Assembly: GCA_030062745.1 (NCBI GenBank)
Contig: CP099848.1
Location: 19,703,081 to 19,767,080 of the forward strand
Source: Capitulum mitella
Lineage: Eukaryota > Arthropoda > Thecostraca > Pollicipedomorpha > Pollicipedidae
DNA: 64,000 bases
Direction of reading: 5' to 3'
Within the stretch, counting starts at the first letter, position 1; the number at the start of each line of letters is the position of its first letter. The notes under the pieces were generated by a model. That model saw only the letters and a list, made by a program, of their open reading frames with translations, searched no databases and was not told the DNA's origin. This document shows positions 23,634-64,000 of this stretch, piece after piece. The position numbers and the translations under genes were made by a program.

Positions 23634-24848
23634 CCCTATTCCCGGAGGGCTAGACGGTATGGCCGATTCCCGGCAGGGGGGGGGGGCGGATTCGGCCCCC
23701 CCCTAAGATCTCGAGAACAACTTGTCTGATTTCATCGCAACAAACGGCAATCGATTTGCCGGGACGTGAACTACATTTTAAAAAAAAAAGAAATTTTCAA
23801 AATTTTGAAATTTGTGGATGCAGGGGGGCAAAAATATCAAAATGGGGGGTACTTTTGGACTTCTTATAACTCCGTTGTTTATGGACCGATTTTAATGAAA
23901 CTGACATGAATTGAGAGATTATAGATAGGGATTTTATCATGGGTCCGCAAATCTGAAATTTTGGGAAAATTCATGGGCGTTCACAGCGTTTCAAAAATAG
24001 GAGGATTAGTTTTCTAACAACAGAATGAACAAAACAGGTAAAAACACTTTTTTGGCTTCTGCTAGTCGTGCTATGCTAAAGAAGGAAACATTGCATTAAA
24101 ATGTTTGTATAATGTTAGCATAGGCGGTGTCAGGGACATAAAAAAGGGGGAACTGTCATGGTCACACGTTCTTCAGATCAACTTGTGGCCTTTGGCTTTA
24201 AATGACCTCCAGTGACCTTGGGGTCACTTGGAATGATGTTGTGTGCATTTAATATTATCTGTAAACGTTTTCAATCATTTGAATTCACTTTATTTCAAAA
24301 ATTTCATTTTATGGCTATTACGATATAGGGTACGTGCACTGACATTTTAGGTCATAGCTCCGTGACCCGACCTGATATCAAGCTGAAACTTGGTACACAA
24401 GTAGAGGGCATCTTTCTTCGTCATATATTTTCCGGGTTTGGCATTTGAAAAGGACGGCGCCGAAATGATTGCAAAAAAACAAATTTTGACTTTTGACCTT
24501 GACCTGACCTTGTTAGGTGATCTCAGACAAACAAAATTTTGTGTGCACATTGCCCAACTATTTAGCTATACATCCATATAAAGTTTTAAGTTGTATCTTA
24601 AAAACTCTGTTTTTGGCAGACATTTTTCTTCTACCCTCAACAGGGCCAAAAATGACCTGAGGTGCCTCCCAAAAACGTTGCCTGACTCCGCCCCTGAACA
24701 ATGTAGAATTGTGAAATTTTGTCGCAGCATGTAGAAAGAATAGCTAGGAAAAGTCACCAAGTTTCGTGAAGCTACGTTAAAAAGCCTGGAATTGGCAAGC
24801 AAAAAACCCGAGGGGGGGCGGATTCCGCCCCCCCTGCCGGGAATAGGG
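23634..24848 (+). mobile_element. TTAA-flanked piggyBac-like MITE, family 1 copy A
   Basis: Bounded by TTAA at 23630-23633 and 24849-24852. The ends are inverted repeats: CCCTATTCCCGG on the left and CCGGGAATAGGG on the right. 1215 bp, no transposase frame. TTAA duplication with ends starting CCC is the piggyBac signature. Carries TGACCTTGACCTGACCTT at about 24495-24512. Copy B at 27539 is a close relative. Confidence 0.85.
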
Positions 24849-27183: not shown

Positions 27184-27355
27184 ATGGGCTGCGCTGGGAG
27201 CCGCCCCGCCGCCGGCGCCGGGGACCTGCGGCTCGGTGGCTCCGGGCTGACGTTCAGCGCGCGCCAGCTGCGCAAGCTCAACGAGCGCTTCGCCTGGATG
27301 GAGCATCGCTGCAACTCGGCGCTCAACGAGTACTATTCGGCCATGAAGCCGCGAG
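27184..27355 (+). CDS. cGLR exon 1 (start codon, acylation signal, first helix)
   Basis: The ATG at 27184 has a strong context (GCCATGG). Residues 2-6 are G-C-A-G-S, matching the myristoylation pattern with a Cys beside the acyl-glycine that could be palmitoylated. It then encodes LTFSARQLRKLNERFAWMEH, the long helix that precedes the NTase core. Donor GTGAGC at 27356, phase 1. Confidence 0.8.
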
Positions 27356-39300: not shown

Positions 39301-42300
39301 ATGTGATAAACAATACACAGGGTTTATGACAAGAACTAGCGGTCCGCGATTCGTCAGTGAGTTCCACGCCGACGTTGAGTGATAAGGCACTGATGTGGGA
39401 GGAAGCCTTGTCATGCGCTAAGATAGCACGCGATACGTGTACAATCACACCGAACGTGATGGGTAATGAGCCACAACGACTTCGTTCGCGTGCAAACTGT
39501 TATTTGACCATTTTGAAAAGAATACAGCGTTTACACCTATACGTATGTGGACACCTGTGCGCGCACTTCTATGTATGTCATTGGGAGACGCTGGGATCTA
39601 ATGGTGATTTACTTAGGACCTTAATTATTTCTGATTAATCTCGCCAAGTTCCGTTGGGTGCTCGTGGAAATAAGCATGGCTTGAATGTTTCATTAATTTG
39701 CTTAATACGAAGACGCACTTTTGATCTTCCTCTTATGGAAGAGGTAATAAACCATGGACTCGGAAACCTAAGAAGCAAGGTATGAATCATATTTTCAGAC
39801 GCCAACAAGTCCCTGACCTTCAATAGAACCACAGCTCTGTTGCCCCCGGCCAGACCACAGTTCTGTGATCCGGCCCAGACCAAGACTTTATGATCCTTTC
39901 CTCCTCCCCGGCCACAGCCCTGTGACCTGTCTCTGCCCCCAGGCAGCGGGCTGGACCGCAATTCTGTGACCTGTCTGTGCCCCCAGGCGGCGGGCCGGAC
40001 ATGCAGCAGCTGGACGCCGTCGGCACGGTCGAGGCGGCCGTGGAGCGACTCGTGCAGCGGATCATCATCACGGTTGGCACGCGAGATCCGCGCTTCGCTT
40101 CCTGCTTCCTGCTCAGCGTCGGCAGCTCGTACGAGCACTACAAGGTGGGCTCTGGCGGCCTGGGATCGCGCGCCGCCACGCGCTGCAGCTAGGAATGGAC
40201 TGGCGACCGCCAGGACTTCCCCGGGATTTCGGAAATGCCGCCCGATAGCGACAGGTTTATGTTGCACGTCCGGAAAACCCACTTATGACGGTCTGTACGC
40301 CGCCCGGTGTGATTTGTTGATACCGGTCCCTTCGCGGTTCGCCTGGTCATAGCGTGCGGCCCGAGTTATGCGCACATCGCGTGCCGTTCGCCGCACGGAG
40401 GTGCAATTTTGGAGCTTTAGAAGAATGGTGCTCTTCAGATAATGTTTAAAGATGCGATGTCTAGTGATGAGCGTAACAAAACCAGAATGAAAGAATGCTA
40501 AGTAAGGGTTCAGGACATGGCCGCGGGAACTCCTCCACAGCTGGGGAGGGGGTGTCCGGGGGAGTGGCAAAGAGGCATTTTAGTTCAGCTCTTTCCAGTC
40601 GCACCCACAAGGTCAATGAAAAAATTCAAAAAAGTTGAGGGGACAGTTTCCTTTCTCTGCCCCTCGCTTCCCGCGTCCCTGGCTCTGGATGTCGCCGAAG
40701 TCTTTTTCCCGTATTCTGTCCACATCCGGCCTGTTCTTTGCAAGATATAGGTATTTAGTCGCTCTTTTGAAATCCGAAAATGTCCTTAAAATTGCATGTA
40801 GTTGTAAGAAACTGACGGCATCTAAACACGTGTTTACGGCTGCGAACATCAGAAGAAGACTGGTTAGCGCAGTTGGCTTTCCTGGCTTCTTTAGTCAGTT
40901 TCCTTTCCAGCCTCCTGGCATGCACTGGATCCCGCTTGTTGTAGCACTTAACTTATAATGGGTCTCGAAACGCACGACTTGTTTTGAAACTTTTGCGTTA
41001 CCTGACCAAACACATACATGAATATCCGCGCGTTTTGCTGTTACGAGCGAGGCCGTAGGACGAGTTTCTCCAGCCAGCAGAAAAAAATCAAATTGCGTGG
41101 GCCGGCCCAGCCCGGCCATGAAGCTGTCTGCACGCTGCTAACGTCGTTGTCTTTTACCGAATGGCGATATTTTCACCAGGTGATAGGTCAGTTCTTCAGG
41201 GTTTTCATTATGTCCAAATGATTGGGGGGACCGAGGTAAGGGCCCGTCAACTTAACTTTCCCCTAGATATGTATCTCTCAACCGACTTTAGCCCACTTTA
41301 ATTTGAGCAACGACAATTTTATTCATTTAGCATCATTTTTAAATAGCCAATTATATATATATATATATAGATATATATATATACAACATTACCAGTATTG
41401 GTAGTACATATACCATATACCTGTACCATACCGCCAACGTATTTCATACCGTTATTGAGCATTTAATGCTTCGCTTCATACTCTGCCATCTACTGTACAT
41501 CGCCGTCATTGATGCTCGTAATTATTGTCTTATTGCTCTTGTTAAAACAGGCGGAAAACATGGGGCCAAGCCAACATTGGGAGGCCCAAATCAACACTGG
41601 GGAAGGGGGGCAGGGTCCTGACAAAAGAATTTGTTCTCCGTATTTAAATTTACAATGCGTTACCTCGCAAGCTGTTTTGTCCACATGAGTATTCTAGGAG
41701 TGACGTAGTCGCTCTTTGAATTTTTCCAAGGGTTCTTGCGAGCCGTTCAACAATGGCAGCGAACAATGTTGTGGGCGCATGACGAGTAAATCTGTAATTC
41801 CTCGAATGCAGAATATTGACAGAGGTCGGCCAATGTTTGCTTGTATTGGGAAATGCATTCGGGAAAGATCTGTTAGTATATGTTTTAGACATTTTAGGCT
41901 TCGGGAATATCCAAAAACATCCGGTAGTATTTGGATTTGGAAACTAAAATATCTGGAGATGGTTCGAGACATACTTTAAAATATGCAGAGAAAACAGCAA
42001 GTCGCGCTCAAGGCTGCCGCGAGCTGTCCGACAAGGCACCTTACTGGTTGTACAGCATACACCGCTGTGCGTAGCCAAAAACATTTATACAGAAAATGCT
42101 ACAGTTCAGCCCACTGACAAACACGATCCCTGCTATGATCCTGCTTTCAGGCTTGTGATTTTGCTTCGCACTCACCCTTTGCATTTGATCGTGAAGTGTT
42201 CCGCATAGTCACGTAGTACGTTTTTCCCTATCATAGTCATTTCTTCGGGTAACGATAAACAAATAACCTACTAACCTTCTGAGGCCTTGAATGCTTGGAC

Positions 42301-48300: not shown

Positions 48301-51300
48301 CTTTCGCCAGGCTCGATTGCTCCGTTCCCTGGTTTGGTTTCGGTACAAAGGTTTATTCTTCAGTGCTGCCAATATGGCACGTATGACGCCGTGACCTGTA
48401 CGATGTCCCGACCCCTGTATGACCGTGGTGTCGCCTCGAAGTGACCAATGCCCCTGTCATGTTGAGTTAGTCTGGCCTGGAAAACACCGCTGCTGTCCAA
48501 CATGCATCGGGTACGCATGACTTAGTTTCTGTATAACCCAGCGTAACTCCCAGATGTCCCTATTTTGACACCTGAGTGACATTGGCCTAACTTCCGAGTG
48601 GTCCTGGTTTGATCCCCGAGTGACCCCGAGTCACCCCGGTTTGACCTCTGAGTGACCCTAGCTTGACTTCTGAGTGGCCCTCCTCATCGGCGCGGCCAAA
48701 CGGGGGGCCGGGTTGCGGCATTTTTGTGAAACAATTGCACATCGCCTTCCCAGCGGGCGGTTTTTGTACGATTTCAGTTCGCACTGAGTTCCGACCCCCC
48801 CTCCCACCCAGGGAAATCCAGACTGCGCCCCTGGTCCTGCTTTGGCCCGTGGGTGGCCCAGGCTTGACCCCGAGTGACCGGGTTTGACCCCTGAGTGACC
48901 CTGGCGCGCCTCAGGTGAACGAGCCGGACGAGTACGACTACATGGTGCGGCTGGACGGCCTGTCGTGGCCGCCGCTGTACCCGGCCGACGCGGCCGGTCC
49001 GCCATGCTCCCTGGTCGAGGACGACCAGTGCCCGCACGGCTTCGGGAGGCTGAAGCTCGCCGAACACTGCCGCCCGCTCTGGGCCGAGTTCGTCAACGAC
49101 GACGGACTCCTGATGCGGTGAGGTTGCTGATTTGTGAGTAGACAGCGAGCGCGGTAAGTAGGCTGCTGCACGAGTTGAATAGACGGCTGATATCGCTGGG
49201 ACGCTACTGATGCAGTGAGATGACAATTACTGTTGGTTATCGGAACCTGATTTCCGACTTTTTTTCAAGATTTTCCAATGTCCGAATCCGAAATCGAATG
49301 GACCTAGCACTCATTTCTCGGCAAAAATTGGACAGCTAATTGCAAGCCAACAGCCAAAAATGTCATAAAACCACATGTTGTTTAGTTTTCCAGTTACAAT
49401 ACCAGCTACAAGCATGGCACAAAACCATAATTTTGATGTAATCACTCAACACTATAGTTGGCTAAGCTTCTGCGCTTTCCTTATTCAGTTCAATTACACG
49501 TCTTGAAATACTCATATCCACATTGCGTACATTGGAAGTGAAACTAGACCCTTGCTGGTCATACCAATAATTATGGAAATCTAAGTGAAAACTGGAATAA
49601 AAGCGCCACATTTGCTGTTTTGTCATTTTTCGTCATTTTTAATGCCACTTTTCCATCCAAACAGAACACACGGAATTTGCAACCATTGGCCAAAACAAAC
49701 CAACAGACTAGACTGAGAAATCGAAGGACAGACATTACTACAGCGCCCGTAGTAATGGCTGCTTCTACTGCAGCACTGAAAAACATATCGCAGTTTTCTT
49801 GGTCAGACAGTCTTAGACACTCACATGGCTTCCTCCTCGGAACCTGGGTGGGAACTGGTTTAAATCTTCCGAAAATAACAATAGTAATGTCTATTGATGC
49901 GGTGGGCTCGCTGCTGGTCTGAGGTGAGTGGACCGCTGACTTGTGAGCGGAGTGCTGATACGCTGAGCAGAGTGTTGATTTGTTGATTGCTCAGTAAGCA
50001 GGAGACTTGGTGCTCTGTTTGCTGATGGGCGAATGCATTCCGCCGTCTTCATGTCCTGCATGCACATGGAGCCGGTCCACTGTTTTTAATAGCCTTCAAC
50101 GTCAACAAGCGGTTCCGACGTGAAGTAACGCTGGTGTCGCAGGCAAGGAGAGGTGTGTCGTCATAGTGCTTTCAGAGATGTGGTACAGTGTGGCAAGAAA
50201 TGAATTTTCTCTGCCAGAATGAGATTCATATAGAAAGGGGCATAGGAACCTCAGGGAGCCACGGGTCAACATGCAGTTTAGTTCTCTAAGCAGGCACCTC
50301 AAAAGCATAGGTGGGCACTGGTCCGATACTCCGTTACTCCGTTACTAACGAAGTTACTTTTTTGAGTAACAGAGTAACGGACCCGTTACTTTTATTTTAC
50401 TGTAACGGACTGAGTAACGTAAGTTACTTTTGTGGTCCGTTACTCCGTTACTTTTTGGTCCGTTACTCCGTTACTTTTTAAACTCCTTACAGACACCGCC
50501 CGGCTTTATTTGCATCGGCACACGCCATTGGCTACTTGAATAGCCAACACCCAATAGCGTGCGGCGATACAAGCGCGGCTGGGCGCGCACTCAGCTGACA
50601 ATCGCGGAGTAGACTTGTTGACAATATTCGTCAGCTGATAAACGTTGACGGCAAGCTGGCGGCAATGGTTCAGTATAAAGGCCAGCTGACTTTGGTCTCT
50701 TTTGGGACAAAAGTATTGAATTATGCGTAAGTTTGATATGACTTAAAATTATAAATTAACCAGTCGTCATTTTTCAGGCTAAAAGATATCAAAGTTATTG
50801 TCATTTATACTGGAACAGCCAGCTGACGGCAGTTTTCAATGTTGTCTCAAGTTAGTCACGGATTGCTTACCATCGCCGCGCGGTTCCCCGCCAAGATCAC
50901 TCAAGGCCGTTGAGCACATGATTACTGCCGCCATGGCCTTGGATCTGTGATGTCCATGGGGCGATGGAGTGGTGACTGATTCTTGACTGGCCTGAAATTT
51001 TAACTACCTGACACTAAAATGTCCCATCAAGGCGTCTTTACGCCGCCACTGGAGGTCGAAAACCTTAACTCGGAGTCCGACGGTGCCTCAGCTTCGGAGG
51101 CAGAGGACGAGCCCGGTCTGGGTCACCCATGGCCACATCTAGAAACGTACTTTGAGTTTCAGGAGGAGGGGAAAAACGTCATTTTTACGTATGTCCTGTG
51201 CCGACCGAAAGAGGTTATAATCAAGGGTCACAAGAGTAGCCTTTCAAACCTAAAGGCACATATCAAGAGGAAGCATTATTTACGGTATTTCCAGGTGAGA

Positions 51301-54300
51301 ACAGAATGTGCACAATAAGTTGTCAGTAGTGAAGCATAATTATGAAGCTTGTCGACTATTGCTTGGACTATTTGCCTTAACCATATTCTCTGCAGGCAGT
51401 GAGATTCACATTACCCTGGGGGGAGCCGATCTGCGGTAATCTACCTTTCGGCCGACGCTTACGCTTAATTTTTGGAGACGCGGAAGTGGCAACACAAGTT
51501 GTGCGAACAATTTAGCCCATTCAGGTATTTTTCTAAGCACTGGCCCCTACTGGATGTGTAAACTGACTTGGTTAGGTAACTCTTGAATTTTGATTCAGTT
51601 GACACATGTTTGCCTTCAGCCGATACGAGCTAACCAAACCAAAAAAACAGGCAAATTGAACCTAACAAAAAATTAGTTTTACATGCCCATCTAGGGCAAT
51701 CCCTGCAACCATACAGCAGGTTTTAGGTAAGGTTAGGTTAAATCATTTTTAACTTGGAGGACAGGCTACATTGTCCATGCGATTCGAGTTACCACTTTTG
51801 CGTTCCCGAAAAAAAATATAAACTGGCAGAAACACCTTTCGGCTGACACATTATTTTTTGTAGACGAAGAAGTGAGGACCCAAACTCAAACATGATATGA
51901 GCCGTTGCCACTTTTGCACCTTCGAAAAATATGCATTGGCCGAAAGGTGAAGATTACCAATTCTGCCCCCTCCCCTCCCCGCCCTTCCAGAGATCTCGAG
52001 ATGCATTCGTCCCATGTTGATGGGATGAATGCCATTTAATATGTTTCAACGAGATCTCCAATTCCGGACCCCAAAAATTCAAAAATTGCGAAAATAGGGC
52101 GTGGGGCAAACAAACTCCAGAATTTGGGGATTTTTGATTGGTCACTGCGGCCGTGTTTACCAACCAATTTTCATGGGAATGACACGGTTCAGCTTGGAAT
52201 GTCCAAATCTTTTACATGCTGAAATTTAAAATAGAAAACCATAGGCAGTTCCAGGGAGGGCAAGAAGGGTGATTTTTGAAATAAGAAATTTGCTTTGTTT
52301 TTTGTTTGTTTTGGGTGATATAAACATCAGATGTACAACTAGCAAGCCGGTTTAAGTTTATATGTAGCGCAGAGGTGGATCCAGGTAAATAAAATTTGGA
52401 GGGCATCATAAGCACAACATTGTGCTCCCCCATTTTTTCAGTACCTGCGTGTGCGTTAGCCTGAAAATGTGTGTGCATACGCATTGTTTAGGATGTGTAT
52501 GACTATATAAATGAGTCAGTGATCTTTATTTCTACTCAGAATGTCACGATAGTGAACCGCACAACTTTGCAGCTTCACGCACAGCACATTACCGCCGAAA
52601 ACGGGGGCTTGGAACCGCCTCTGCGGGACCGATTTTTTTTTTTAAATGTTGACAAAACACTTGTGTATCAGTTCCATGAAATGCCAGAAAATCTTGTGGC
52701 GCTGCGGCAAACAGTGTGGGAGCGACAAGCAAAAAGACACGGTTAGCAGAATCTGCCCCCCCACAGGGAATAGGGTTAAATGAAGTGTTTTTAACCCGTC
52801 TCCGGCCGAGCTCAGAATGCCCTTTGCCCGGCCGGAGGGGGAGCGCGGATTTCCGCACCTCCCAGGATCTCGGCTCCCATATATCGCACGGAAAAAGGAA
52901 AACATCGGCGGAAAGGTTTTGTCAAACCGAGACGAAAACATTCAAGAGTTTTGACCTCAGATCAATTTTGAGGCCACCAGACGCCATGAAAGGTCAAAAC
53001 ACGTCCTTGGAATTAGGTAAATAGACACAATACCTTGTCCCTGAAAAGCTGAACTTAAGCGACATATACTGAACCGTAAGACAATAGCGAGTTCATTGAT
53101 ATCAATTTTGGCCTTTCACAGGGGTCAGGTCAGGTCACGTCATCGTTCCAAAATGTTCCACTTGTGAACGGCTAACATCCTCCGTTGCATCTTACTTATG
53201 ACCATGTTTTTATAGCTAATTTGTCTTTTCAAGGGTGCTGAAGAGGTACTAAAGCACCTTTTTTTAGTCTTTTATTTCACAATAATAAAATCCATATCAG
53301 TCATGTTTTTTGAGTCCTTCGTCGTTTGGTATTAAAAAAAAAAAAAACGTCAGGGGTATCAGGAATCTTACCTCCACGCACGCGCTCGTACACAAACTAA
53401 TACACACACATAATTTCAAAACAAAACAAGAAGTTCGCGAGACCGAAACGAGCTCTAAACGGAGACCATTATGTTCAGGGCGGATACTTCGAGAGGCATT
53501 GTTGATCAAACCCAGTCGATAGATGTCCGCTGTTTGTCGCATTTTGCATGCGTCCGCTCCAGCGCCGGTTGTTCCCGCTCCGTCGGCGCCGCGGGCAATA
53601 AACAGGAATTCGTTGGTTTGAACATTGTGGCTAACACAGTGGTAGAATACCCGCCGCGGCTGTTGTCCCGGCGCCGCCGACTCTACAACGGCTGGTGAGG
53701 GCAGTGGGCAGCTAGCGGAGTGTTTTGGGTAAGCGCTTTTTGTGTCTTCCCTTTGTATATGGAATGCGTTTTACAACCACAAAGCAGCATAAAAGACTTA
53801 AAACCCGAGTTCGCTTGGTTTTCACTGCATTTAAAAAAGTAACGGAATAACGGAGTAACGGTAACTTCCGTTACTTTTTAAGGCAGAGTAACGGAGTAAC
53901 GAGTAACGGACTGGCTTTTTTGAGTAACGGAGTAACGAGTAACGAAGTTACATTTTTTAGTAACGATGCCCACCTATGCTCAAAAGTAACCTCCTCCTGG
54001 TGACAGAGACAAGCTGCGAGACCACTTTCTGGCGCTGGTGCGGGAGGCGGTGGCCGAGCCCGTGGCCGACATGAGGGACATCCAGGAGTCGTCTCTGTGT
54101 GGCTGCTCGGGGAAAATATTGGACGTCGGCGTGCTGCACTACATCCTACAGCTACCGCCGGAGCAGCGCTTCTTCCTGGCCATCGGTCAGTGCTGACGGC
54201 GCAGGGAAGTGGCGCGGAAACAAAGAGGACTAGAAAGAGAAAAATAAGAGGGGATCCGGAAGAAGGGAGGGGCGAGGTGAAGAGACTACAGCACGTAGGC

Positions 54301-57300
54301 TAGTACGACGTTTTCGTTTTGCGGTTTTAGCTCACGTTTAGCTATGTTATCCGAGATGTCGCCTATCTGCGAACGCATGAAACACGTCGCTGTTGCGTTG
54401 GTCACTAAACTGTGAAGACTCGTCCGGGCAAAAACGGAGACGAAATCTCACAGCGCTCCAAAGGAGCGTCATTTGATGGCCATGTGAGGGACGCAGAGTG
54501 ATGGCTTCGATTTGATTCGATTTGATTCGCTCCGTTTCGTGCATTCTGCACAGGTTTTTCACGAAGAGGGATTAAATTTGTTATGGCCATGAGTTATCGC
54601 TTCCAGACGGCAAAGTGAGTGCTGCAAAACTCAGTGACGCAACCATTGCATTAGTAATGTTCAACGAGATACGAATCATTGCTGGCATAATCGGCATTAT
54701 TAATGCATTTGAGGAAGGAAATGCGTAAGGTATAACACATTTTTATTCGCCATCTGGTGGACAAGTTTCGGTTAAAAGGACGATGTCCTCCAGTGAAACG
54801 TAATCAGGCTGTGAACTCAAGAGGGTTTAAAGAGAACGCTCTGTTTCGGTCGACGTTTTATAAATAGATTCGGCTGGACCGAAAAATGTCGTCCGACGGA
54901 TGCCTTACTTTCACCGTAACTAGTCAGCTTTGAGTGTTACGGAATAGCCTGCCTTCTGCGGGCTGGATATGTTGCATGACCATGGAAGACTGGTACATGC
55001 ATGAGGGAGATATTGTCGGTACCGGGCGTACATGGTGCACTTTTAGTCATAGTCACCGGTGGTTGTTTGTCACGTTGCACAGTCAGCAAGACGCGACTGA
55101 TCTTTCGATTGTCCGCCCCAACCTCCTGGTCAAGCGCTGCTGGCCACTGACGAGTTGCAATGTCCCGTGAGTCACTCCCGGATCAACCGCAGTCTGTGCT
55201 GGTCACGTGCCAAACTCGTGTGGTGAGTTAGCCCAGCTCCGGTGAGTCCGGCTCACGTCCGTCCGCCTGCACCGGGCAGGGAACCCCCGCAGCGACCTGT
55301 TCCCCGACCCGGCCCAGCTCAAAATCTCGGTCACCTGCGACGGCCCGTCCGTCAAGCTGGCCGTCGCCTTCCCGACCGGAAGTCAGCAGCTGCCGGCGCT
55401 CGTGTCGGTCGACCTGACGCTGGCCGTCGGCCTGCAGGGCTGGCCGAGCAGGGCCGACTTTCCCGATCGCGTGCCGCTCTACAATATCGACGCTCTGCTC
55501 TTCCACCGTGCCGCTGCCAAGGTGGGTGTGTCCTGATCCCCAGCCGCGGTGCCGCGATCCCCAGCCGTGGTGCCATGATCCCCAGCTGCGGCGACCTGAT
55601 CCTCAGCTGTGGTGTCCTGATCCCCAGCCAAGGTGCCCTGACCACCATTCGTGGTGTTCTGCTCCCCGGCCGTGGTGTTCCGGTCCTCTGATGTGGCGAT
55701 TCCTGTTTCCTCCTCAGCGGTTGTGGATGCCCCTGTACCTTCTACTGCAAACATAACACCTGCATAGCATGTTTACTGACGCACATGCACCCTGTAGTTT
55801 AGCCTCCAAATGACGACGACGAAGTTAGTTTCGCCCAGCTCGGCTCGCAGTCAACATCCAGGCCGCTGCAGCGATTCGAATCGGAAGGTCGGTCTGCGCA
55901 GGCCGCCTGTTGCCAAATTTGCACGGCGCCAACTTTCCGAGAAGTTGGCCAGTCTCATTGCATATGTCCGGCTCTTGCAAACAAAGGCGCTGGCATGGCG
56001 ATGGTAGACCTCAGATCTTTTGTGCAAGTGAGCACAACTAAGCAGCTGAGAGTCACTGTGTGTTTGTACGCACAGAGCAACGAAGGACTGAGGCGCAAAA
56101 GTGATTTCTAGAAAGACTCGACTCCTTCACCCGATACACGCTGGATCGAAGATACAGTCAAGCGCTAAACGTTTCAGGGACACTAGACAATAAATAAGCC
56201 CGCAACTACACACTATACAAAATACTGCAACTAAAAATAAATGCATACTAAATTTACATAAACACGGACTGCGTGTTGTGCTCAAGAAGCACTAGTTGTT
56301 CAGTTATCCGCTGCTCTTCAGTGGCATTCCATCGTCGCTTTCCATCGATAGTAAACGGTCGACGTCTGTTCACTGATCAGAGGCGAGTGCAGGCCCCTGT
56401 CTCTGGTTCCTGACCTCGCCTGCCCTGACCTGACCCCGCGGCCGGGCAGGGTTTCTACATGGTGCCGACGGAGCCGCACTGGAGCCAGCCGTGCGCCGAC
56501 CGGTCCACGGCCTGGCGCGTCAGCATGTCCTCCTGCGAGATGGAGCTCACCACGCACTACTCGCACGACTCGGCGCCGGCCGCCGTGCTGCGCGTGCTCA
56601 AGATCATCACGTCGCAGCTCAGCGAGCCGGAGACGCTGCTCAACCGCGACCTGCCGCCGGCCGAGGTCAAGGTCAGGCCGCGCGCGGGGTCGGCGGGTCA
56701 CGGCCAGCTGGTAGAACTCAGTGGGCAGCGCGACGGCTGCGGCGCGCGCTGTTGGAGGGGGCCGTCCAGGAGCGTCACGAGGCTGGTGGTTAGTCGTCTG
56801 CTGGCACGAAGGGCTGCTGCAGTTTTGACGATAATAGCCGACTCAGGGCATTGTCCTCTATGAGAGAAATGGAAACCGGGGTCGGGCGTGTGAAAGGGGT
56901 CATATCTATTAGGGGTGCAGACGTTTGCTTGGGCGATTTGTCGGCAATTTACCTACTACGTCCGGAAAACCCACAAGTCAAGCAGACACCATCGTCAGCA
57001 TTTTTGCATGACTATCCAGTTTTCGATGACGCTTTGCCTTGTTAGACGCACATTAAAGCATGTGAAGTAGTTAAATAGCTCCATCCAAAAACGGCATTGC
57101 CAAAAAGATGGCATGGAAGCGATTAGAAATTGACATGCACCTGCTCTAGGGATAAAACGCAACTTGTGAAGCATATGAATCAGTCATGACGTTTTTACTC
57201 ACTAGAGTAAACGTAATAGTGTCGTCTGATGCTGTAAAAAAAACAAGTATTTCGGCATATGTCGATTTAAGATGATCCGACTTAGGAAGGCATGTCAGTC

Positions 57301-60300
57301 TGTGCCGAAATATTTGGGTTTTTGTAAGATTAAACAACTTTGTTGATCACGCATACTCTGAAAACGTAGCCAACTTACGAACCGTTGTTATTCGCGAGCG
57401 ACTTGCCCGTTCACTCGCCTGACTCCGACACCGCCGACAGGACCTGCTCTCTTGCGTCAACACCTACATGCTGAAGACGCTCTTCTTCTTCGAGCTGGAG
57501 ACGGACGAGACGCTGGAGCACTGGAGCCTGTCGTCCGTCTCGCGGCATGTGCTGCGCATTCTGGATGCGCTGGAGCAGGCGTTGCGCAGCCGCAACCTGC
57601 GCAGCTACTTCTTCGCCGAGCATAACGTGATGCTGCGGCGCGAGTCGCAGTCGGCCGACTACGGCACGGACGCCGAGATCCTGGAGCGGGTCCTGAGGTC
57701 TCTGCACGCTGCCAGCCTGAGGGACGAGCCGCCCGGCGAGGTGGGTCGGAGGAGATAATAAAGGGGTCTGTCGGAGGCTGCTCCGCGGAGGTCGAGTCGA
57801 ACTGCGGCGAGATGTTCGGAGGTGTGTGAACGAGGAGAGGCTGAGATGTGAAATGGGTCGAGGTGTTTTAGGGAAACTTAGGCATGTGCCGTCCCTTATA
57901 AGCCACTTCTTGCTCTCGTTTACTGAAATTTTCGGCAAATCCAAAAAGTAGTTGGACAGGTGTGACCTGACAGCGCCGGCCGGGCCTCAGGCGCCGGAAC
58001 GTCGCTGGCTGGCGTCGCACCGGCGCCGCGTGCGCCAGGAGGAGCGTCTGATCGACGCCTGGCTGCGACTGCAGCGCGACCAGCGCCGGCTGCAGCCCGC
58101 CGGCCAGTTCAGCTCGCTGCAGATCCGCTACCTGGACCAGCTGCTGCGGGCCGTGTGCCCGCCGGCCGCCGCCGACCGGGAACTGGACGTGAGTGACTGC
58201 GGGTCAAAGCGACTCCGGCCGCGGTACGAAAGGGAGGTTAGAGTTTCTAACTTTATGATGCGAATGTGGTTATGATTCCATTAAAAATTATTGTGCGCTT
58301 TACGTAGGCGTTATGCACAAATTAATTGCTTTCTTTTGACGAAACCTTATGTAAATGTACGCCAGTTTTAATGTTTCTGTCACTAAAAACAAACAGAAGG
58401 AAGTCGTCCTTTTAATCGGACGCGATGCTCCAAGTTCTGGCCACCACCCCAGGCCGGCCGTCTCCACAGATAACGCCTGCGCTGCGGCTGGCCGCTCGGC
58501 ACTTGTTCCCGGACGGCCAGTTGGGATGCACCCTGGCGCAGGCGTCTCGCGGCCTGTCGACGGCGCTGCAGCAGGCGGCGCTGACGGCGCTGGCGCCGCC
58601 GGTCGCCGCCGAGCCGGCCGGTCGCACGCTGGTGCGCGCGCTGCGCGTGCTGGGCGCTCAGACGGGCAACGAACGGGCAGCCGGCCGCCTGCTGGGCCGA
58701 CTGTACGGCGCGGCCGAGCTGAACGGCGCCCAGCTGGGCGAGGAGGAGCAGCGTCGGGAGCTGGTGCCTCTCCGCCAAATGGCGCAATTCGCCGCGGCCG
58801 CCTCCACCAAGGTCAGACGACGGCGGCGGCTCACCGACGTCAAGCTGGGGCTCGCGACCGCCCCTTGTGGATACACTTCCCGCAATGTGTTTGCAGCGTG
58901 TGACGATCTTTATCTGGAACTTTTATACGTTTGGGTGGGAAAGGGAAGACGAATAGTTATATGAAACAGTTATTATAGAATGAAATGGAAACAGCTGGTT
59001 TGCTTTGATCCCTAGGCAGGTTACTGACTAATCTGAAAAAATTCCACTGATTGCGTTTTGTAATAGAACAAGCCCTCATAGTCCCGTTGCGTCCCTTTCT
59101 GATCTGACCTCAGATCGGGAATGCCGTGCCGGAGCTGGAGGAGCGCGCCCTGCAGGGCCAGAGCTGGGCCCAGGAGCTGCTGCAGCTGGCTCAGGAGATC
59201 GGCGGCGTGCGACTAGTGTTCACGCCCGAGCGGGGCCGGACAGTCAGCTGCCTGGTGCGGCCCAGCGTCCAGACCCCGCCCCCCGTCCGGGCACGTGAGT
59301 TAGCGGGGCGTCATCCAGGGGTATTTAGAAACTGACCAAGGGGATGCCATCATGCTTCATGGGATGCCGTCATTTTAAGGGGCGCCAATACGTATGGTGG
59401 AGGGGGACAGCCAAAACCCCAGAAAACGTCACCATTTATTTTTATTTCCTTCTACTTTGACGAGGAAAGGTTGTGCGGAAAGATGGCTCCACGTCGCTTG
59501 GGCTGGCAGATAGCCAGGCACTTTCTGTTATTATCTGTTATTCTGTATATCTCAGGTGCCACTTCTAGTCCCCAGGGCACGTGATACTGCGGCAGGAACG
59601 TAGCCAAGGGGGGCCTTGGGGCCATGGCCCTCCCCTGAGCCAAGCGGTCTGCACTAGATACATGACGATTTCGCATGAATACGTAATAGTGATCATAAAT
59701 ATGTAGCAAAAGCAAACATTCTATATTTTCCTGTGCATTAAAAATGGGATAAATTGCCTAAAATTGCTGCCTTTTCTTGTAAATTTTGTCATATGCCTGT
59801 GGCATATGACAAAATTTGACATTTGTCCCCCCCCTCTGAGGAAAATCCTGGCTACGTGCCCGTACTGCGGTGGCGGGGCAGAATCTCTACCTCCGAATTG
59901 CCGGAATGCGAGACTGAGCATGACGCACTGGGGCGAATCGTTGTATGAGCGTGTTTCGCGACGGTGCTCAAGTACAGCACACAGAGGAGAGTTTCAGCCT
60001 TCCATGTGTTCGATTTCTTTTGCCATACTAGGCGCCGCAGGTTCCTTAACACGCACAGTGGAAGGGAGTTTGGCGCTAACGCGCATTGGAAGGGGCACGA
60101 AAGTGCCCCCCTTCGATCTCGGAAACGGAAAGAGCTAGAGACATGAAATTTTATTCATAGGGTAGGGCTATAAAGATTTACGTTGAATGCGATTTCCACG
60201 ACCCTAGGCTAATATCTTCGAGGTCAAATGGGTCGAAAAGGTCAACTTGGACACTTTCTCTGTCCGTACAGACCATTCCATATTGCTTTTCGAACGAAAC

Positions 60301-60722
60301 GGGAATAAAGTGCATGTTTGAGCATTAAAACATGGGATACGACACTTTCTATCTATGTGGCATTTTGACCGAGGATTTCGGGCCGAGGCCATGTCAGGTC
60401 GTTGACGTATGGTGTCATTTTTTTCATTTTTGTAGGCCAGATTTCGAGAAACACGGGATATTGGTGTAGCTTGAGTGTAAACAAGGGCGCTAAACGCATC
60501 GTTTGGCGTATTTTCAGTGAAGACAGCCAACATTGGTACACTTGATCACGTCTAGGGTTTACTTACCTCCGCAAGGTCAAAAGAACGGAAGCGAGGTCAT
60601 TGACATTGGATGGAGTTTTTGGCTCAAAATAAGTCTTTATATCAACTGCTAGCGCAAAAGTTATTTCGTAATAACGAGCCCAGTTACACGATTTGATTGC
60701 CATAAAACGTAAAAATTATACG

Positions 60723-60754
<32 letters not shown>

Positions 60755-63700
60755 CACACACACATATATATATATTTATTTATTTATTTATATATATATG
60801 CATGCGTACTAATGTGCCAAAGGTAGTTTTATTAGGATGTTTAAGTGCATATTTCATACAGATCGACATGTTGCAAAGCAAATCTGGACCAAGTCACAAG
60901 ATAGTTGACCTTGACCTTCACGGACCCTAGTATACGTAAATGTACCAATGTGCGCATACGTGTTTTTATTAGTCTGAATGCATATTTCATACAAACCGAC
61001 ATGTTGCAAAGCAAATCTGGATCAGGTCACAAGCTAGTTGACCTTGACCTTTGATGACCTTGACCCGCACCGACCCTGGCTTTGGTCTTGTTACATCCAT
61101 CATTTATGCCCGAATGATGTCGGACGATTATGTTCAAACGGCAATCTGACGTAGAACGGTAGTCCTTTCGTAAGATTCCCATTTGTCAGCGATAACCGTA
61201 ATTTTCGTTAAGTCTATTTGGCTTCAAATGTTTATACCTCAAAAATTTCCAGCCGATTTTTGATTTTTTGCGTCAGTCGACGAGTTATTCATTTGCCTTA
61301 TACGTCACCAAGTAGCAGCGACCATCTCTAGTCCGTTCTCGAGATTTTCAAGAAAAACAAGTGAGAGGCACAAAACTGCGCTGTTACCATGAGCGTGTTA
61401 ATTCTGCGCTTGTTATACCTCGTATTCAGATTAGATTCAAGCGGTCCCGGTAGCCATTAATTGTGGGCGATCCAGCTGAAACAAACCATGCCGCCCTACT
61501 CCGACGAATCAGTCACACAGCGCAGAAGCAGACGCTGATACCGATGCTCGACGGTGATCACATAAGCAGATTAAGCATATCACGAAGACATTGGTTCACA
61601 CAGACCTCCGGGGCTTTGGGTACCCTTTTGTTCTTTAGGGCGTCTTTCTAAACATCGGGAATATTTTCATGTCACAGGAGAGGCGTCCTTTGAGCCCTCG
61701 GGGCGTCCCTCAAGAGTTTGGGGCGGCCTTTTGTTCTTTAGGGCGTTCCTTTAGCCATCAGAACATGTTTTCAGCCCCCAGGGGCGCCGTTAAAACTCTC
61801 GGGGACGACCCCCAGGAGTTTGGGCGCCCTTCTGTTCTTTAGAGCATTCTTCTTATTTCCATGACATGGTGTCATGCGTCAGATGCGCCCTTTGAACTAT
61901 TGGGGACGCTCCTCCAGGTTTTGGGACGTCCAGACTCTTTAGGGTGTCGCCCTAGCTTTCGAAACATATTTTCAGACCGCAGAGATGTGTTCTGAGTTCT
62001 CAGGAGCACCCTCCATGTTTTAAGGCACCCTGTTATACTTGAGGGCGTTCTTCTAGACCTCGCGACATATTTTCAGACCACAGGGGCGTTCTTTGAGCCC
62101 TCGGGGTCACCCCTTCGGGGTTTGGAACTCCTTTTTATTTGCTGGACGCTTCGTCTTCTCCTGGTCTTTCTGGATGTCAGCATGTATCTTCAAAACACAG
62201 GGGCGCCCTTTGGGGCCCTAGAGGTGCCTTTTGGGCCCTCGGGACGCCCTTTGAGTCATCAAGCCTCCTGTGGATGTGGCGCCCTTTTATTATTTAGGGC
62301 CTCCTTGTAGCCCTCGGGACATAGACTGCAGGGATGTCCGAATGAGCACTCGGGGACGCTCCTCCAGTTCGTCCGGAGGTTTGGGACGCCCTTTTGTTTT
62401 CCAGAGTGTCCTAGACTTCATGACGTATTTTGGGATCATAAGGCTGCCCTTTCAGCCCTTGGGGGCACCCCTTGAAGGTTTTGGGTGCCTTTTTATTCTC
62501 TAGGGCATCCTTTTCGCAGTCGGGATGATTTTAGACCTCAGGGGCGCCCTTTGAAGTCTCGGGGAGGGGATTTCTCCATGATTTAGGGGCCCTTGAGTCT
62601 TCATGATCACTAAGTTCAGTTGGGTTGTTGATTCCCTCCCATCCTCGGGACATTTTCAGTCCTCATGAGTCGCACGTAAAGACCTCGAGAGCATAACTTG
62701 TGCCTTCGGCGCCCTATTATCATCTGACGCTGTCCCTGTCCAAGCACGCGAGCAGGCGGGGCCGTAAGTGTTTCCCATTCGCGACACAGTTTCTTGACCT
62801 TTGAAATCTAACAAACGGAATGTCAGCTGTAGTTTGTCATACAACGCCCGGAAAAAATGATTTGCACCCCCGCCCTACCTATTCTTCGCAGGGGCGGGCC
62901 CAGCGGCTCGATTTAGGGTAGGGCATGCAACCAGACTTTTGCTGGGTATGGATGTTAGACCAGCGAATCAGCGAATCAGCGACTGGGATGGGGGATGAAA
63001 GACGCTGGCCGTGGGTTCGGAGTGTCCAGCGACCTCAAACTGTGATTGTGTTGTATTTTTTTGGGGGGGGAATGACTATTTGACCGCGTAATCGCGGTCA
63101 GGGGTCAGGGCCGAGATGGCCCCCTGGATCCGCCTATGATTCTTGGTGGATTGCAGTCAGTTTGTCCCCCCCCCCCATTTTCTGAGCCGTGGCTACATCC
63201 ATGATCATCACCTCTCTGGACCCGTCTCTTCTGCCTTCGACCTGTAAATGCATATTTGTTCAGAATCGATGACTGGCCTCTTGACTGGCCTGCTGGTGTT
63301 TCAGGTGACGACATGGAGACCGAGTTTGAGTTTCTGCTACAAGAGGCTGAGACGGTGGACAGTAGCGTGCCGCCTGCGCGTACGGTCCACTGCAGAATAC
63401 AGTTTGCAAACCCCATCAGGTCAGTGGACACACATCCCTCTCTAGTCGTGCCTTTTAATCGTTCCATTTACAGGACTTGTGTAGCCCTGAACGTAGGCGG
63501 AATCGAATCACGAGCGGTGTCCAGCTAATCTTTTATTGGCCTCCAAGGGGTCTTGACTCGAAGCTTGCTTTCTTGTTGGAATGCCCAGACTGTTCGTCTA
63601 TTATCTGTTCCATCTCTTTTGCTGACTCTCCTGCTGGAATGATACCATGTAAACTTCATGTAATCAAAATATTCGCACACCACTGAAATTGCTCTTCCCT

Positions 63701-63882
63701 TTTTAGCATCGGTGTTGGAAAGTAAAAGTTGTCTAAATCGTCACTAGGTGGCGTGTGATGCGATCAAGTCCTAATAGCTGTCGGTGTCTGGCAGGTCGTA
63801 CGTGGACCGCCGTCGGCGGTACGGTCGTCAGCGGGGACTTGGACACATCGTCCAGTTCATCATCCATATGGGGCGTAGTGAC
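27184..63882 (+). CDS. cGAS-like receptor (Mab-21 / nucleotidyltransferase family), 800 residues, 3' end beyond window
   Basis: A predicted cyclic-dinucleotide synthase of the cGAS-like receptor family. Exons: 27184-27355, 39987-40144, 48915-49117, 54007-54185, 55280-55521, 56450-56671, 57441-57740, 57991-58188, 58470-58811, 59114-59294, 63305-63419, 63795-63882. All phases agree; the total is 2400 bp. The core carries LLSVGSSYEH (GS at residues 103-104), NEPDEYDYMVRL (E116, D118) and VSVDLTLAV (D282), the same order and near-identical spacing as the catalytic motifs of vertebrate cGAS. GFYMVPTEP, TAWRVSM, SYFFAEHNVML match later Mab-21 landmarks. No zinc-thumb H-x5-CC-x6-C is seen. The N-terminus MGCAGS fits N-myristoylation. 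Residues 493-800 form an unrecognised, mostly helical extension. Family knowledge: cGLRs sense nucleic acid or other ligands and signal through STING-type receptors. Ligand and product are unknown. The last exons are joined by phase only. Confidence 0.85.
27539..28746 (+). mobile_element. TTAA-flanked piggyBac-like MITE, family 1 copy B
   Basis: TTAA at 27535-27538 and 28747-28750; same inverted ends as copy A (CCCTATTCCCGG / CCGGGAATAGGG); 1208 bp; the same orientation and highly similar along its length. It lies in cGLR intron 1. Non-coding. Confidence 0.85.
28751..30480 (+). other. cGLR intron 1 segment, no gene recognised
   Basis: Moderate-GC stretch with two short open frames (28756-29010 and 29010-29312) that overlap by one base but show no family I recognise and no clear splice sites. 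Treated as non-coding intron. Confidence 0.4.
30490..31410 (+). repeat. About 715-bp-period direct repeat, 2 partial copies
   Basis: CATTGAACTCTC followed by GGTGTGGTTCA occurs in both 30490-30730 and 31208-31410 with the same surrounding order (AAGCTTCAG/AAGCTACTC, GAATTACG, TTTTGACTGTGGG/TTTTGACCGTGGG). Two diverged copies in one orientation. Confidence 0.65.
30965..31200 (+). repeat. Dispersed repeat, arm of an inverted pair
   Basis: Matches the reverse complement of 32865-33085. Shared segments include the CTTCTGCCAGAAATGTTTT type end and the ATCTGTT...GCCATCA middle. The translated peptides of the two arms both end HSFCQKCF, which shows homology though neither is a credible gene. Confidence 0.65.
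31612..32740 (+). mobile_element. TTAA-flanked MITE, family 3 copy A (right end unclear)
   Basis: Starts after TTAA at 31608-31611 with CCCGCGCAGTGGAAGGG. Similar in order to the element at 60050-61397: GGAAACGGAAAGAGCTAGAG, a 145-bp internal duplication built on CATATTTCATA...CGACATGT, and TTTTTGCGTCAATCGACGAG near the end. No TTAA on the right, so the end is truncated near 32740. Confidence 0.7.
32865..33085 (-). repeat. Dispersed repeat, opposite arm of the inverted pair
   Basis: Reverse-complement relative of 30965-31200; the two arms enclose a MITE and about 1.66 kb. Confidence 0.65.
33090..34330. other. cGLR intron 1 segment, nothing recognised
   Basis: AT-rich intron sequence with no open frame beyond about 80 codons, no repeat that I could match within the window and no splice-like exon. 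Confidence 0.5.
34334..35190 (-). mobile_element. TTAA-type MITE, family 2, truncated, minus orientation
   Basis: The reverse complement aligns with 36440-37332: GGAACTAATTTT, CGCGAGAGCCTGTTTATT, GACATGTGTTG. The outer end reads TTAGCCGGCGCCCGACTG, a mutated TTAACCCGCGCCCGACTG terminus. The other terminus is missing. Confidence 0.7.
35620..35850. repeat. Degenerate short tandem repeat (CACAGGGGCGCCTTTTGAA type)
   Basis: Units built on CACAGGGGCGCCTTTTGAA...ATCACATGATC recur about every 65 bp, with relatives at 36075, 37360, 8609 and the large block at 61600-62650. Confidence 0.55.
36111..37332 (+). mobile_element. TTAA-flanked MITE, family 2 full copy
   Basis: TTAA at 36107-36110 and 37333-37336; 1222 bp. 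The left region has GTCCCCGACTGGGG and the right region CCCCAGTCGCCC...CGCGGG, the family's G/C-rich ends. Inside are the AGGTCA-rich tract at 36250-36290 and CGCGAATAAAGCTCCGCCA. Non-coding. Confidence 0.75.
37790..38110. repeat. 179-bp tandem duplication
   Basis: CATTGGACCTATAT at 37796 and CATTGGATCTATAT at 37975 start two copies that share TACTTGAGCCGTCGT, GTCAGATCTCA and CAACGTCGT/TAACGTCGT. Confidence 0.8.
39081..39117. repeat. (ATACCT)n hexanucleotide repeat
   Basis: About six units of ATACCT with one interruption in cGLR intron 1. Confidence 0.9.
39920..39986 (+). repeat. 44-bp duplication carrying a decoy splice acceptor
   Basis: CTGTGACCTGTCTCTGCCCC AG GCAGCGGGCTGGAC at about 39929-39955 is repeated 44 bp later as the real exon 2 acceptor region (AG at 39985-39986, then GCGGCGGGCCGGAC). 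The decoy AG is at 39941-39942. Using it would add 44 nt and shift the frame. Confidence 0.8.
39987..40144 (+). CDS. cGLR exon 2 (helix and GS motif)
   Basis: Acceptor GTGCCCCCAG ends at 39986; donor GTGGGC at 40145; phase 1 in, phase 0 out. Encodes a helix (VEAAVERLVQRIII) and then FLLSVGSSYEHYK, the NTase GS motif, with the YEH that also follows it in vertebrate cGAS. Confidence 0.9.
41351..41384. repeat. (TA)n microsatellite
   Basis: TA dinucleotides with one GA interruption in cGLR intron 2. Confidence 0.9.
42580..42756 (+). promoter_or_regulatory. Orphan GC-rich segment resembling a first exon with E-boxes
   Basis: An isolated CpG-rich patch in cGLR intron 2. Two CACGTG E-boxes (42666-42671 and 42675-42680) precede ATG at 42723, followed by MSDGHGFRG and a consensus donor GTGAGT at 42751, phase 1. 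It could be an alternative first exon for the later cGLR exons (exon 5 and exon 11 accept phase 1), a nested gene start, or chance. Confidence 0.25.
43735..44045 (-). mobile_element. tRNA-derived SINE, minus strand
   Basis: On the minus strand a tRNA-like head has AGCTCACTCGGTAGAGTGG (A box, 44011-44029) and GGGTTCGAGTCAC (B box, 43975-43987). The body runs left to a T-run on the + strand near 43733-43741, i.e. an A tail on the element strand. Acceptor stem does not pair. Confidence 0.65.
44927..46263 (+). mobile_element. TTAA-type MITE, family 2, copy split by a SINE
   Basis: Left end CCCGCCCCCGATTGGGGGG after a mutated TTAA (GTAA, 44923-44926); right end CAGTCGGGCGCGGG before TTAA at 46264-46267. 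Homologous to 36111-37332 apart from a 577-bp insertion at about 45172-45748. It shares its right TTAA with the next copy. Confidence 0.7.
45172..45748 (-). mobile_element. SINE-like insertion inside a MITE
   Basis: Interrupts the alignment of the host MITE to its relatives; AATACT occurs on both sides (45166-45171 and 45743-45748), a likely target duplication. On the minus strand a tRNA-like head reads GGTGGCGCGGTTAGTAAGTG (about 45671-45690), with a degenerate B box at about 45624-45634. The 175-codon minus-strand open frame across it is not recognised. Confidence 0.5.
46268..47492 (+). mobile_element. TTAA-flanked MITE, family 2, second tandem copy
   Basis: Left TTAA 46264-46267 followed by CCCGTCCCGACTGGG; right end CCAGTCGGGCGCGGG before a mutated TTAA (ATAA, 47493-47496). 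1225 bp, non-coding, the same orientation as the copy just upstream. Confidence 0.75.
47500..48010. other. CpG-rich island inside cGLR intron 2
   Basis: Very GC-rich, with several overlapping long frames on both strands caused by composition. The cGLR core reads straight across from exon 2 to exon 3 (YEHYK|VNEPDEYD), so no exon is missing here. Promoter, enhancer or repeat origin is undetermined. Confidence 0.45.
48540..48914 (+). repeat. Degenerate 22- to 24-bp minisatellite ending at exon 3 acceptor
   Basis: Variants of GTTTGACCCCTGAGTGACCC recur at both ends of this stretch, and the last unit runs into the exon 3 acceptor (CCTGGCGCGCCTCAG). Confidence 0.7.
48915..49117 (+). CDS. cGLR exon 3 (catalytic E-x-D)
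   Basis: Acceptor GCGCCTCAG ends at 48914; donor GTGAGG at 49118; phase 0 in, phase 2 out. Encodes VNEPDEYDYMVRLDGL with the metal-binding E116 and D118, then a loop and HGFGRLKLAEHCRPLWAEF. Confidence 0.9.
51019..51294 (+). pseudogene. hAT transposase N-terminal BED-finger exon, decayed
   Basis: A 99-codon frame from 51019 to 51318 with an acidic N-terminus and then FTYVLCRPKE...SNLKAHIKRKH, a BED zinc-finger pattern. The second Cys of the expected C-x2-C is Lys64 (C61, H81 and H86 remain), so the zinc site looks damaged. A donor-like GTGAGA at 51295 after YFQ suggests an original splice to the lost catalytic part. Confidence 0.7.
52640..52775 (+). mobile_element. Fragment of TTAA MITE family 1
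   Basis: Ends in GGGAATAGGG followed by TTAA (52776-52779), identical to the family 1 right terminus, preceded by GACAAGCAAAAAGACACGG like the family's GGCAAGCAAAAAACCCGAG. The left end is not found. Another TTAA-CCCGTCTCCGGCCG terminus begins at 52791-52808. Confidence 0.55.
54007..54185 (+). CDS. cGLR exon 4
   Basis: Acceptor TCCTCCTGGTGACAG ends at 54006; donor GTCAGT at 54186; phase 2 in, phase 1 out. Encodes DKLRDHFLALVREAVAEP, SLCGCSGK and VGVLHYILQLPPEQRFFLAI. The hAT element lies only 20 bp upstream of it. Confidence 0.8.
55280..55521 (+). CDS. cGLR exon 5 (third catalytic Asp)
   Basis: Acceptor CCGGGCAG ends at 55279; donor GTGGGT at 55522; phase 1 in, phase 0 out. Encodes ISVTCDGPSVKLAVAFPT and then LVSVDLTLAVGLQGWP with D282, the third metal ligand. 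Confidence 0.9.
55529..55690 (+). repeat. 21-bp minisatellite after exon 5 donor
   Basis: About seven units of CTGATCCCCAGCCGTGGTGTC type begin 7 bp after the exon 5 donor. Each unit carries CCCCAG, an acceptor-like triplet context. The repeat is open in one frame but that frame is not the exon's. Confidence 0.85.
56450..56671 (+). CDS. cGLR exon 6
   Basis: Acceptor GCCGGGCAG ends at 56449; donor GTCAGG at 56672; 74 codons, phase 0 to 0. Encodes GFYMVPTEPHWSQPC, TAWRVSMSSCEMEL and VLRVLKIITSQLSEPETLLN. GFY-V-P and W-R-S are Mab-21 landmarks shared with cGAS. Confidence 0.9.
57441..57740 (+). CDS. cGLR exon 7 (end of Mab-21 core)
   Basis: Acceptor CGCCGACAG ends at 57440; donor GTGGGT at 57741; 100 codons, phase 0 to 0. 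Encodes NTYMLKTLFFFELETDETLE, LSSVSRHVLRILDALEQALR, NLRSYFFAEHNVMLRR and an acidic tail. The LK-T-FFF and YF-E-N-L patterns match the C-terminal lobe of cGAS. Confidence 0.9.
57991..58188 (+). CDS. cGLR exon 8 (C-terminal extension)
   Basis: Acceptor CGGGCCTCAG ends at 57990; donor GTGAGT at 58189; 66 codons, phase 0 to 0. Encodes Arg/Gln-rich helices such as HRRRVRQEERLIDAWLRLQR and SSLQIRYLDQLLRAVC. No family recognised. Confidence 0.8.
58470..58811 (+). CDS. cGLR exon 9 (C-terminal extension)
   Basis: Acceptor CCGTCTCCACAG ends at 58469; donor GTCAGA at 58812; 114 codons, phase 0 to 0. Encodes ITPALRLAARHLFPDGQLG, alanine/leucine-rich helices, GRTLVRALRVLGAQTGNERA and GEEEQRRELVPLRQMAQFAA. 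Confidence 0.8.
59114..59294 (+). CDS. cGLR exon 10 (C-terminal extension)
   Basis: Acceptor CTGACCTCAG ends at 59113; donor GTGAGT at 59295; phase 0 in, phase 1 out. Encodes ELEERALQGQSWAQELLQLA and VRLVFTPERGRTVSCLVRPS. Confidence 0.75.
60050..61397 (+). mobile_element. TTAA-flanked MITE, family 3 full copy
   Basis: TTAA at 60046-60049 and 61398-61401; ends CACGCACAGTGG on the left and CCATGAGCGTG on the right are imperfect inverted repeats. 1348 bp. Holds GGAAACGGAAAGAGCTAGAG, TA and CA microsatellites at 60720-60802, a duplicated CATATTTCATACA...CGACATGTTG segment and TGACCTTGACC tracts near 60905 and 61040. Lies in cGLR intron 10. Confidence 0.75.
60720..60802. repeat. Compound (TA)n/(CA)n/(TTTA)n microsatellite
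   Basis: TA run, then CACACACACA, a second TA run and TTTA repeats. The sister MITE at 31612 has only a short version near 32135-32160, so this expanded after insertion. Confidence 0.9.
61600..62650. repeat. About 1.05-kb degenerate tandem repeat block
   Basis: Variants of GGGGCGCCCTTTGAGCCCTC, TTTGGGGCGCCCTTTTGTTCTTTAGGGC and ACATATTTTCAGACC recur in the same order. Copies are diverged, of roughly 110-190 bp. Related short copies occur at 8609, 35620-35850, 36075 and 37360. Confidence 0.65.
63305..63419 (+). CDS. cGLR exon 11 (assigned by phase)
   Basis: Acceptor GGTGTTTCAG ends at 63304; donor GTCAGT at 63420; phase 1 in, phase 2 out, matching exon 10. Encodes DDMETEFEFLLQEAETVDSS and TVHCRIQFANPI. 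Could belong to a separate downstream gene, but its phase and the codon usage agree with cGLR. Confidence 0.65.
63795..63882 (+). CDS. cGLR exon 12, last exon in window
   Basis: Acceptor GTCTGGCAG ends at 63794; donor GTGAGT at 63883; phase 2 in, phase 0 out. Encodes SYVDRRRRYGRQRGLGHIVQ and FIIHMGRSD. The gene continues past the window. Confidence 0.65.
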
Positions 63883-64000
63883 GTGAGTGTGACGCTGATA
63901 CGATATCTTTCTCTGATCATGGTAAGCGGAGGGCGTGTGAATGGCCTGAAGTTGTTGATACCTTTTTCGATTTCGCGATCGAAAGCTGCAAGCAGCATAG

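Follow-up and report, generated by a model that had tools for sequence, protein, structure and literature searches.

The window, a stretch of 64,000 nucleotides on contig C10 of Capitulum mitella (19703081-19767080), contains most of a gene that we read, with a probability of roughly 0.6, as a single-copy cGAS-like receptor (cGLR) making a cyclic dinucleotide that acts on STING, its ligand being likelier something other than DNA or RNA. That the encoded protein adds to the already published cGLR family is well supported. Gene structure, family, residues, charge and STING-type genes were computed, the genome searched comprising 477 Mb in 16 contigs, and from these we infer a probable catalytic activity, product, ligand and immune role.

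Gene structure and coding evidence

Exons 1-12 sum in phase to 2400 bases, or 800 codons, and are separated by GT-AG introns. The initial annotation had joined the same twelve exons into 800 codons; its phases and splice borders hold, but the 3' end is incomplete, as codon 800 is followed by a donor (GTGAGT, 63883) rather than by a stop and the remainder of the gene is cut off by the window edge. The full gene has 14 exons and encodes 941 residues, with a TGA stop at 65174-65176 (coordinates extended past the window edge) and an AATAAA at 65883, 3' of the stop.

The model was built with a dynamic-programming gene finder started at the ATG at 27184, and the resulting path was then edited by hand. 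For each of the twelve exons the gene finder recovered the 5' border, whereas exons 6, 8, 9 and 12 had their 3' ends shifted to nearer donors. Two extra gene-finder exons in intron 2 (42619-42750 and 47684-47926) were dropped because the alignment with cGAS continues without a gap across that junction. The path continued through 34 exons into a neighbouring gene and was truncated at the first stop that follows exon 14.

Table 1. Exons, motifs and tandem arrays, in window coordinates (exons 13 and 14 in coordinates extended past the window edge).
Feature	Position	Strand	Description	Codon score
Exon 1	27184..27355	+	codons 1-57; start MGCAGS	19.7
Exon 2	39987..40144	+	GS activation loop, G103-S104	19.0
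Motif VGSSYEH	40118-40138	+		
Exon 3	48915..49117	+	first two triad residues, E116 and D118	31.5
Motif EPDEYDYM	48921-48944	+		
Exon 4	54007..54185	+	helix and an insert whose length is uncertain; donor GTCAGT is weak	22.2
Exon 5	55280..55521	+	D282, third triad residue	30.3
Motif SVDLTLAV	55405-55428	+	contains D282	
Exon 6	56450..56671	+	nucleotide contacts R341-S343-S345; 3' end hand-picked	33.0
Exon 7	57441..57740	+	Mab-21_C helical lobe, T400-Y401-K404	46.3
Exon 8	57991..58188	+	C-terminal region begins, no known domain; 3' end hand-picked	36.8
Exon 9	58470..58811	+	C-terminal region; 3' end hand-picked	54.1
Exon 10	59114..59294	+	C-terminal region	25.1
Exon 11	63305..63419	+	weak support	4.4
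Exon 12	63795..63882	+	weak support; gene finder favoured end at 63921	1.8
Exon 13	64214-64351	+	past window	21.0
Exon 14	64889-65176	+	past window; includes stop	43.5
Tandem array	1095-1242		unit 48 bases	
Tandem array	2352-2533		unit 87 bases	
Tandem array	15660-15963		unit 77 bases	
Tandem array	16871-17252		unit 152 bases	

Codon scoring was trained on six frames from elsewhere in the genome, with the present gene excluded; training partly on the gene itself gave about the same scores. Twelve of the 14 exons (1-10, 13 and 14) score from 19.0 to 54.1. Among AG-to-GT open intervals outside the exons, the best control score is 8.4 on the same strand (92 intervals) and 4.4 on the other (53 intervals). 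Scores on the opposite strand reach 24.4, the four highest overlying real exons of the other strand. When the protein was shuffled 20000 times, the pattern GSxxE-8-E-h-D-h arose in 4 cases. We conclude that this is a real many-exon gene for a relative of cGAS.

Exons 11 and 12 score within the noise. They are weakly supported, being backed by splice signals and frame rather than by score, and the frame calls for some segment between exons 10 and 13, as exon 13 falls out of frame if both are left out. Together with the 4-kb length of intron 10 and the run of the gene finder into the adjoining gene, the low scores would suit a wrong fusion of two adjacent genes, in which exons 1-10 belong to one gene and exons 11-14 to another or to none. 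We regard such a fusion as quite unlikely: exons 13 and 14 score far above both controls, and the frame closes only with an intervening segment of length 2 mod 3, which exons 11 and 12 supply. The catalytic domain would be unaffected either way.

Two copies of one sequence lie 3.9 kb apart at 23785-24593 and 27682-28490, the second within intron 1; they are 89-93% identical where matched and perhaps represent a transposable element. A search of the window against Rfam gave no match, nor did a Pfam search of seven long frames from its first 16 kb. About 30 kb beyond the end of the window, a joined stretch of exons (L012) matches the guanylate kinase family (4.4e-22); these exons probably encode a voltage-gated calcium channel beta subunit.

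Catalytic domain and its relatives

Two Pfam models pass their curated cut-offs on residues 1-492, namely Mab-21, with an E value of 1.9e-14, and Mab-21_C, with one of 1.8e-11; an NCBIfam search of the same residues gave no match. In a phmmer search of PDB sequences with these residues, the best match was 8gjy (E 7.1e-15), followed by human cGAS (3.8e-10) and MAB21L1 (7.8e-5). With both lobes matched, 8gjy as the best solved relative, and the triad and most nucleotide contacts kept, the cGAS-like identity originally proposed for the gene is upheld.

The three motifs named in the initial annotation each occur once in the six frames, on the forward strand, and its residue numbers E116, D118 and D282 are correct on the 800-codon model. 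In human cGAS, the aligned counterparts of G103-S104, E116, D118 and D282 are G212-S213, E225, D227 and D319, so that the triad is intact by alignment, as had been claimed. In the pairwise alignment, human R376, S378, S380, Y436 and K439 are kept as R341, S343, S345, Y401 and K404, while S435, T211 and N482 are replaced by T400, V102 and S447. Human K414 pairs with E379 in the pairwise alignment and with K369 in the multiple alignment; the assignments of E116, D282, R341, Y401 and K404 are the same in both. Given the functional roles of the compared human residues, the catalytic residues look intact.

As far as the accessible text of PMC9980059 defines the family, a cGLR has a G[S/G] activation loop, [DE]h[DE] with a later h[DE]h, and homology over the nucleotidyltransferase core and the C-terminal helix bundle; here these are G103-S104, E116-Y-D118 with V-D282-L, and the Mab-21 and Mab-21_C matches. 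The criteria there further comprise predicted structural homology and the synthesis of a nucleotide second messenger. The search filter described there requires that GS be preceded by Q or T and that 50-90 residues separate the acidic pair from the third acidic residue, against V102 and 161 residues in the present protein. Our literal rendering of the filter pattern also fails on human cGAS and on all 18 paralog frames, so that only position and spacing were used here. We treat the filter values as settings rather than as defining features because 8gjy has K before GS and a spacing of 102. Judged on the spacing and on the residue that precedes GS, the filter as given in that text would miss both the present gene and 8gjy.

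How long the insert between the acidic pair and D282 is depends in part on the weak exon-4 donor. An alternative donor at 54099 has the right phase, is weaker still, and would shorten the insert, in which the score per codon is lower over the last 39 codons than over the first 20.

The Mab-21_C model matches 47 places in the genome, the present gene included, of which 42 are within open frames 465-1147 codons long. Three acidic residues stand at the triad columns in 13 of 15 aligned paralog rows; the exceptions are L006 and L001, the latter a mab-21 copy with Q at the third column. The mab-21 genes L001 (contig C4) and L002 (C5) are identical at 214 of 219 residues over their common part, and a genome duplication might leave such a pair. 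Another paralog frame, L021 (C2:37781496-37781771), contains the start MGNRRS, a possible myristoylation start. The available portions of PMC8416341 and PMC11331182 give C. mitella 16 chromosomes, with assemblies of 463 and 512 Mb, and those of PMC11331182 describe an ancient genome duplication in barnacles. The retained second copy of the present gene that might be expected after such an event was ruled out by a search of the genome with all 941 residues, which gave 17 matches: 14 to the gene's own exons and three weak ones elsewhere, to Mab-21_C sequences with 35-40% identity.

The initial annotation had looked to phylogeny for a place within cGLR clades. In a tree of 18 rows (paralog frames L002, L008 and L026 left out, 8gjy entered as 282 residues), the present gene, human cGAS, 8gjy and the animal's mab-21 form one group (98/95) and the other Mab-21 genes form two. 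The placement of the gene is unsure because the four grouped rows are also the four in which fewer than half of the retained columns are filled; in addition, the tree program flagged three of them (the present protein, human cGAS and mab-21) as long branches.

Charge, ligand and proposed function

The catalytic domain is acidic (pI 5.03, net charge -21), whereas residues 157-522 of human cGAS are basic (pI 9.07, +12). Over the 282 residues compared, 8gjy has a pI of 5.74 and a charge of -7. The whole 941-residue protein has a pI of 6.15 and its C-terminal 449 residues a pI of 9.03. At the zinc-ribbon positions, human H390, C396, C397 and C404 are replaced by Y355, A362, A363 and I370; the DNA-contact lysines K384, K407 and K411 align with M349, S373 and S376 in a stretch where the alignment is uncertain. 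Of the marks of cGAS proper, the zinc ribbon is therefore absent, and a basic DNA-binding surface seems to be missing as well, judged from the aligned lysines and the pI.

In the consulted portions of PMC9980059, cGLRs that sense dsDNA or dsRNA have a pI above 8.5, while some self-active cGLRs are acidic, down to pI 5.0, and a non-nucleic-acid ligand is proposed for them. By charge, the present gene would side with these acidic self-active cGLRs, with caution in view of the acidic 8gjy. A nucleic-acid ligand is judged unlikely because the domain is acidic and is without the zinc ribbon; charge is no firm guide to the ligand because the compared part of 8gjy is likewise acidic. The acidic domain thus argues, not firmly, that the ligand may be something other than DNA or RNA. 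The initial reading of a competent synthase serving as an innate immune sensor is in this way partly borne out: the Mab-21 protein of cGLR type, the triad and the presence of STING-type genes in the genome agree with it, whereas ordinary nucleic-acid sensing does not fit the low pI or the missing zinc ribbon and lysines.

The genome contains five STING_LBD matches, on contigs C15, C11, C8 and C4, which are therefore candidate receptors for a cyclic dinucleotide. At L013 (C15:8911458-8911949), a 425-residue open frame has two tandem STING ligand-binding stretches, and no membrane part is evident in it by eye; the frame ends in CCIL, which resembles a prenylation box. In the same genome, all 150 scored matches to Chitin_bind_4 (arthropod cuticle), from 627 candidates, pass the cut-off; barnacle cement protein 20k gave no match, a negative that carries no weight.

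On the basis of its charge class and of these candidate receptors, we read the gene as a probably competent orphan cGLR feeding STING. Ligand binding to the spine surface would order the G103-S104 loop, E116, D118 and D282 would bind two metals, and two NTPs would be joined into a cyclic dinucleotide acting on one STING protein of the same animal. Counted against this reading are V102 in place of T211, the spacing of 161 against the filter's 50-90, S447 in place of N482, and the pairing of K414 with E379 in the pairwise alignment.

The kept fold alone is no proof of synthesis, because three shrimp Mab21 proteins signal without making cGAMP: according to the available part of PMC12928593, Mab21-1 to -3 bind neither DNA nor RNA, produce no cGAMP and activate IKK-epsilon. 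By analogy, the present protein could be an idle or dead enzyme that keeps the fold as a scaffold and binds a partner, for instance a TBK1-like kinase, for which the 449-residue C-terminal region could serve in docking. We hold this to be improbable, since the triad is complete and most aligned nucleotide contacts are kept, unlike in the mab-21 copy L001. Somewhat less doubtful, although still unlikely, is an ordinary dsRNA- or dsDNA-sensing cGLR whose ligand surface is masked in the overall charge or lies on the basic C-terminal part. Wherever the ligand of a cGLR is known, it is dsRNA or dsDNA, as far as the text at hand of PMC9980059 goes, and the compared part of 8gjy is acidic too; against this stand the domain pI, the replaced lysines and the zinc-ribbon cysteines without counterpart.

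The C-terminal 449 residues are without a detected relative in the searches made. A 321-residue version of the region (without exons 13 and 14) gave nothing above cut-off in Pfam, with one weak match (E 0.2), and only weak matches in PDB (E 0.29 to 0.82); residues 559-941 gave no Pfam match, and the best blastp match of the region among the 18 paralog frames had an E value of 0.59. The protein ends in TKL, which resembles a class I PDZ ligand, and its MGCAGS start is a putative myristoylation and palmitoylation signal. Among the papers listed for cGLR or Mab-21 proteins and myristoylation, the one that uses this term most concerns OAS2. A more speculative version of the function, to which we give little credence, is a membrane-anchored cGLR in which the MGC start would be myristoylated and palmitoylated, the acidic groove would read a membrane signal that carries positive charge and is not a nucleic acid, and the new C-terminal part would link to a scaffold through the PDZ-ligand-like TKL. 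What cGLRs sense besides DNA and RNA is left open in the accessible sections of PMC9980059, and the present cGLR, acidic, single-copy, complete in its triad, possibly lipid-anchored and encoded in an arthropod genome with several STING-type genes, offers a concrete candidate for test.

Comparison with known systems

In its available text, PMC9980059 counts 3,020 cGLRs across 583 species. No paper on a barnacle cGLR appeared among the matches listed for barnacle STING or cGAS, for crustacean cGLR or Mab21, or for acidic or non-nucleic-acid cGLRs. The shrimp proteins LvMab21-1 to -3 are, in the part of PMC12928593 consulted, crustacean Mab-21 proteins on the cGAS side of the tree without a zinc ribbon, like the present protein; they differ, by published description only, in being reported to be without canonical ligand-recognition residues. 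Human MB21D2 (7lt1) resembles the present protein in having a complete putative triad and, in the excerpted texts of PMC8410604 and PMC9980059, no known ligand. A phmmer search with the present protein gave 41 sequences, and MB21D2 is not among them; it was matched by a three-row profile of that protein and two paralogs.

Human cGAS (4km5 and others) shares with the present protein the triad, the GS loop, W-R-x-S-x-S and the equivalents of Y436 and K439; it differs in its zinc ribbon, its DNA-contact lysines, which have no aligned counterpart here, and its basic rather than acidic charge. The closest solved chain, 8gjy_A ("cGAS-like receptor 1" in PDB), is similar in GSYYERSKVGEPDEFDLM versus GSSYEHYKVNEPDEYDYM, in SVDLTL and in the match of both lobes. 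The solved construct, a chain of 376 residues, is without the 449-residue C-terminal region of the present protein, and the distance from the acidic pair to the third acidic residue is 161 residues in the present protein, 102 in 8gjy and 89 in human cGAS.
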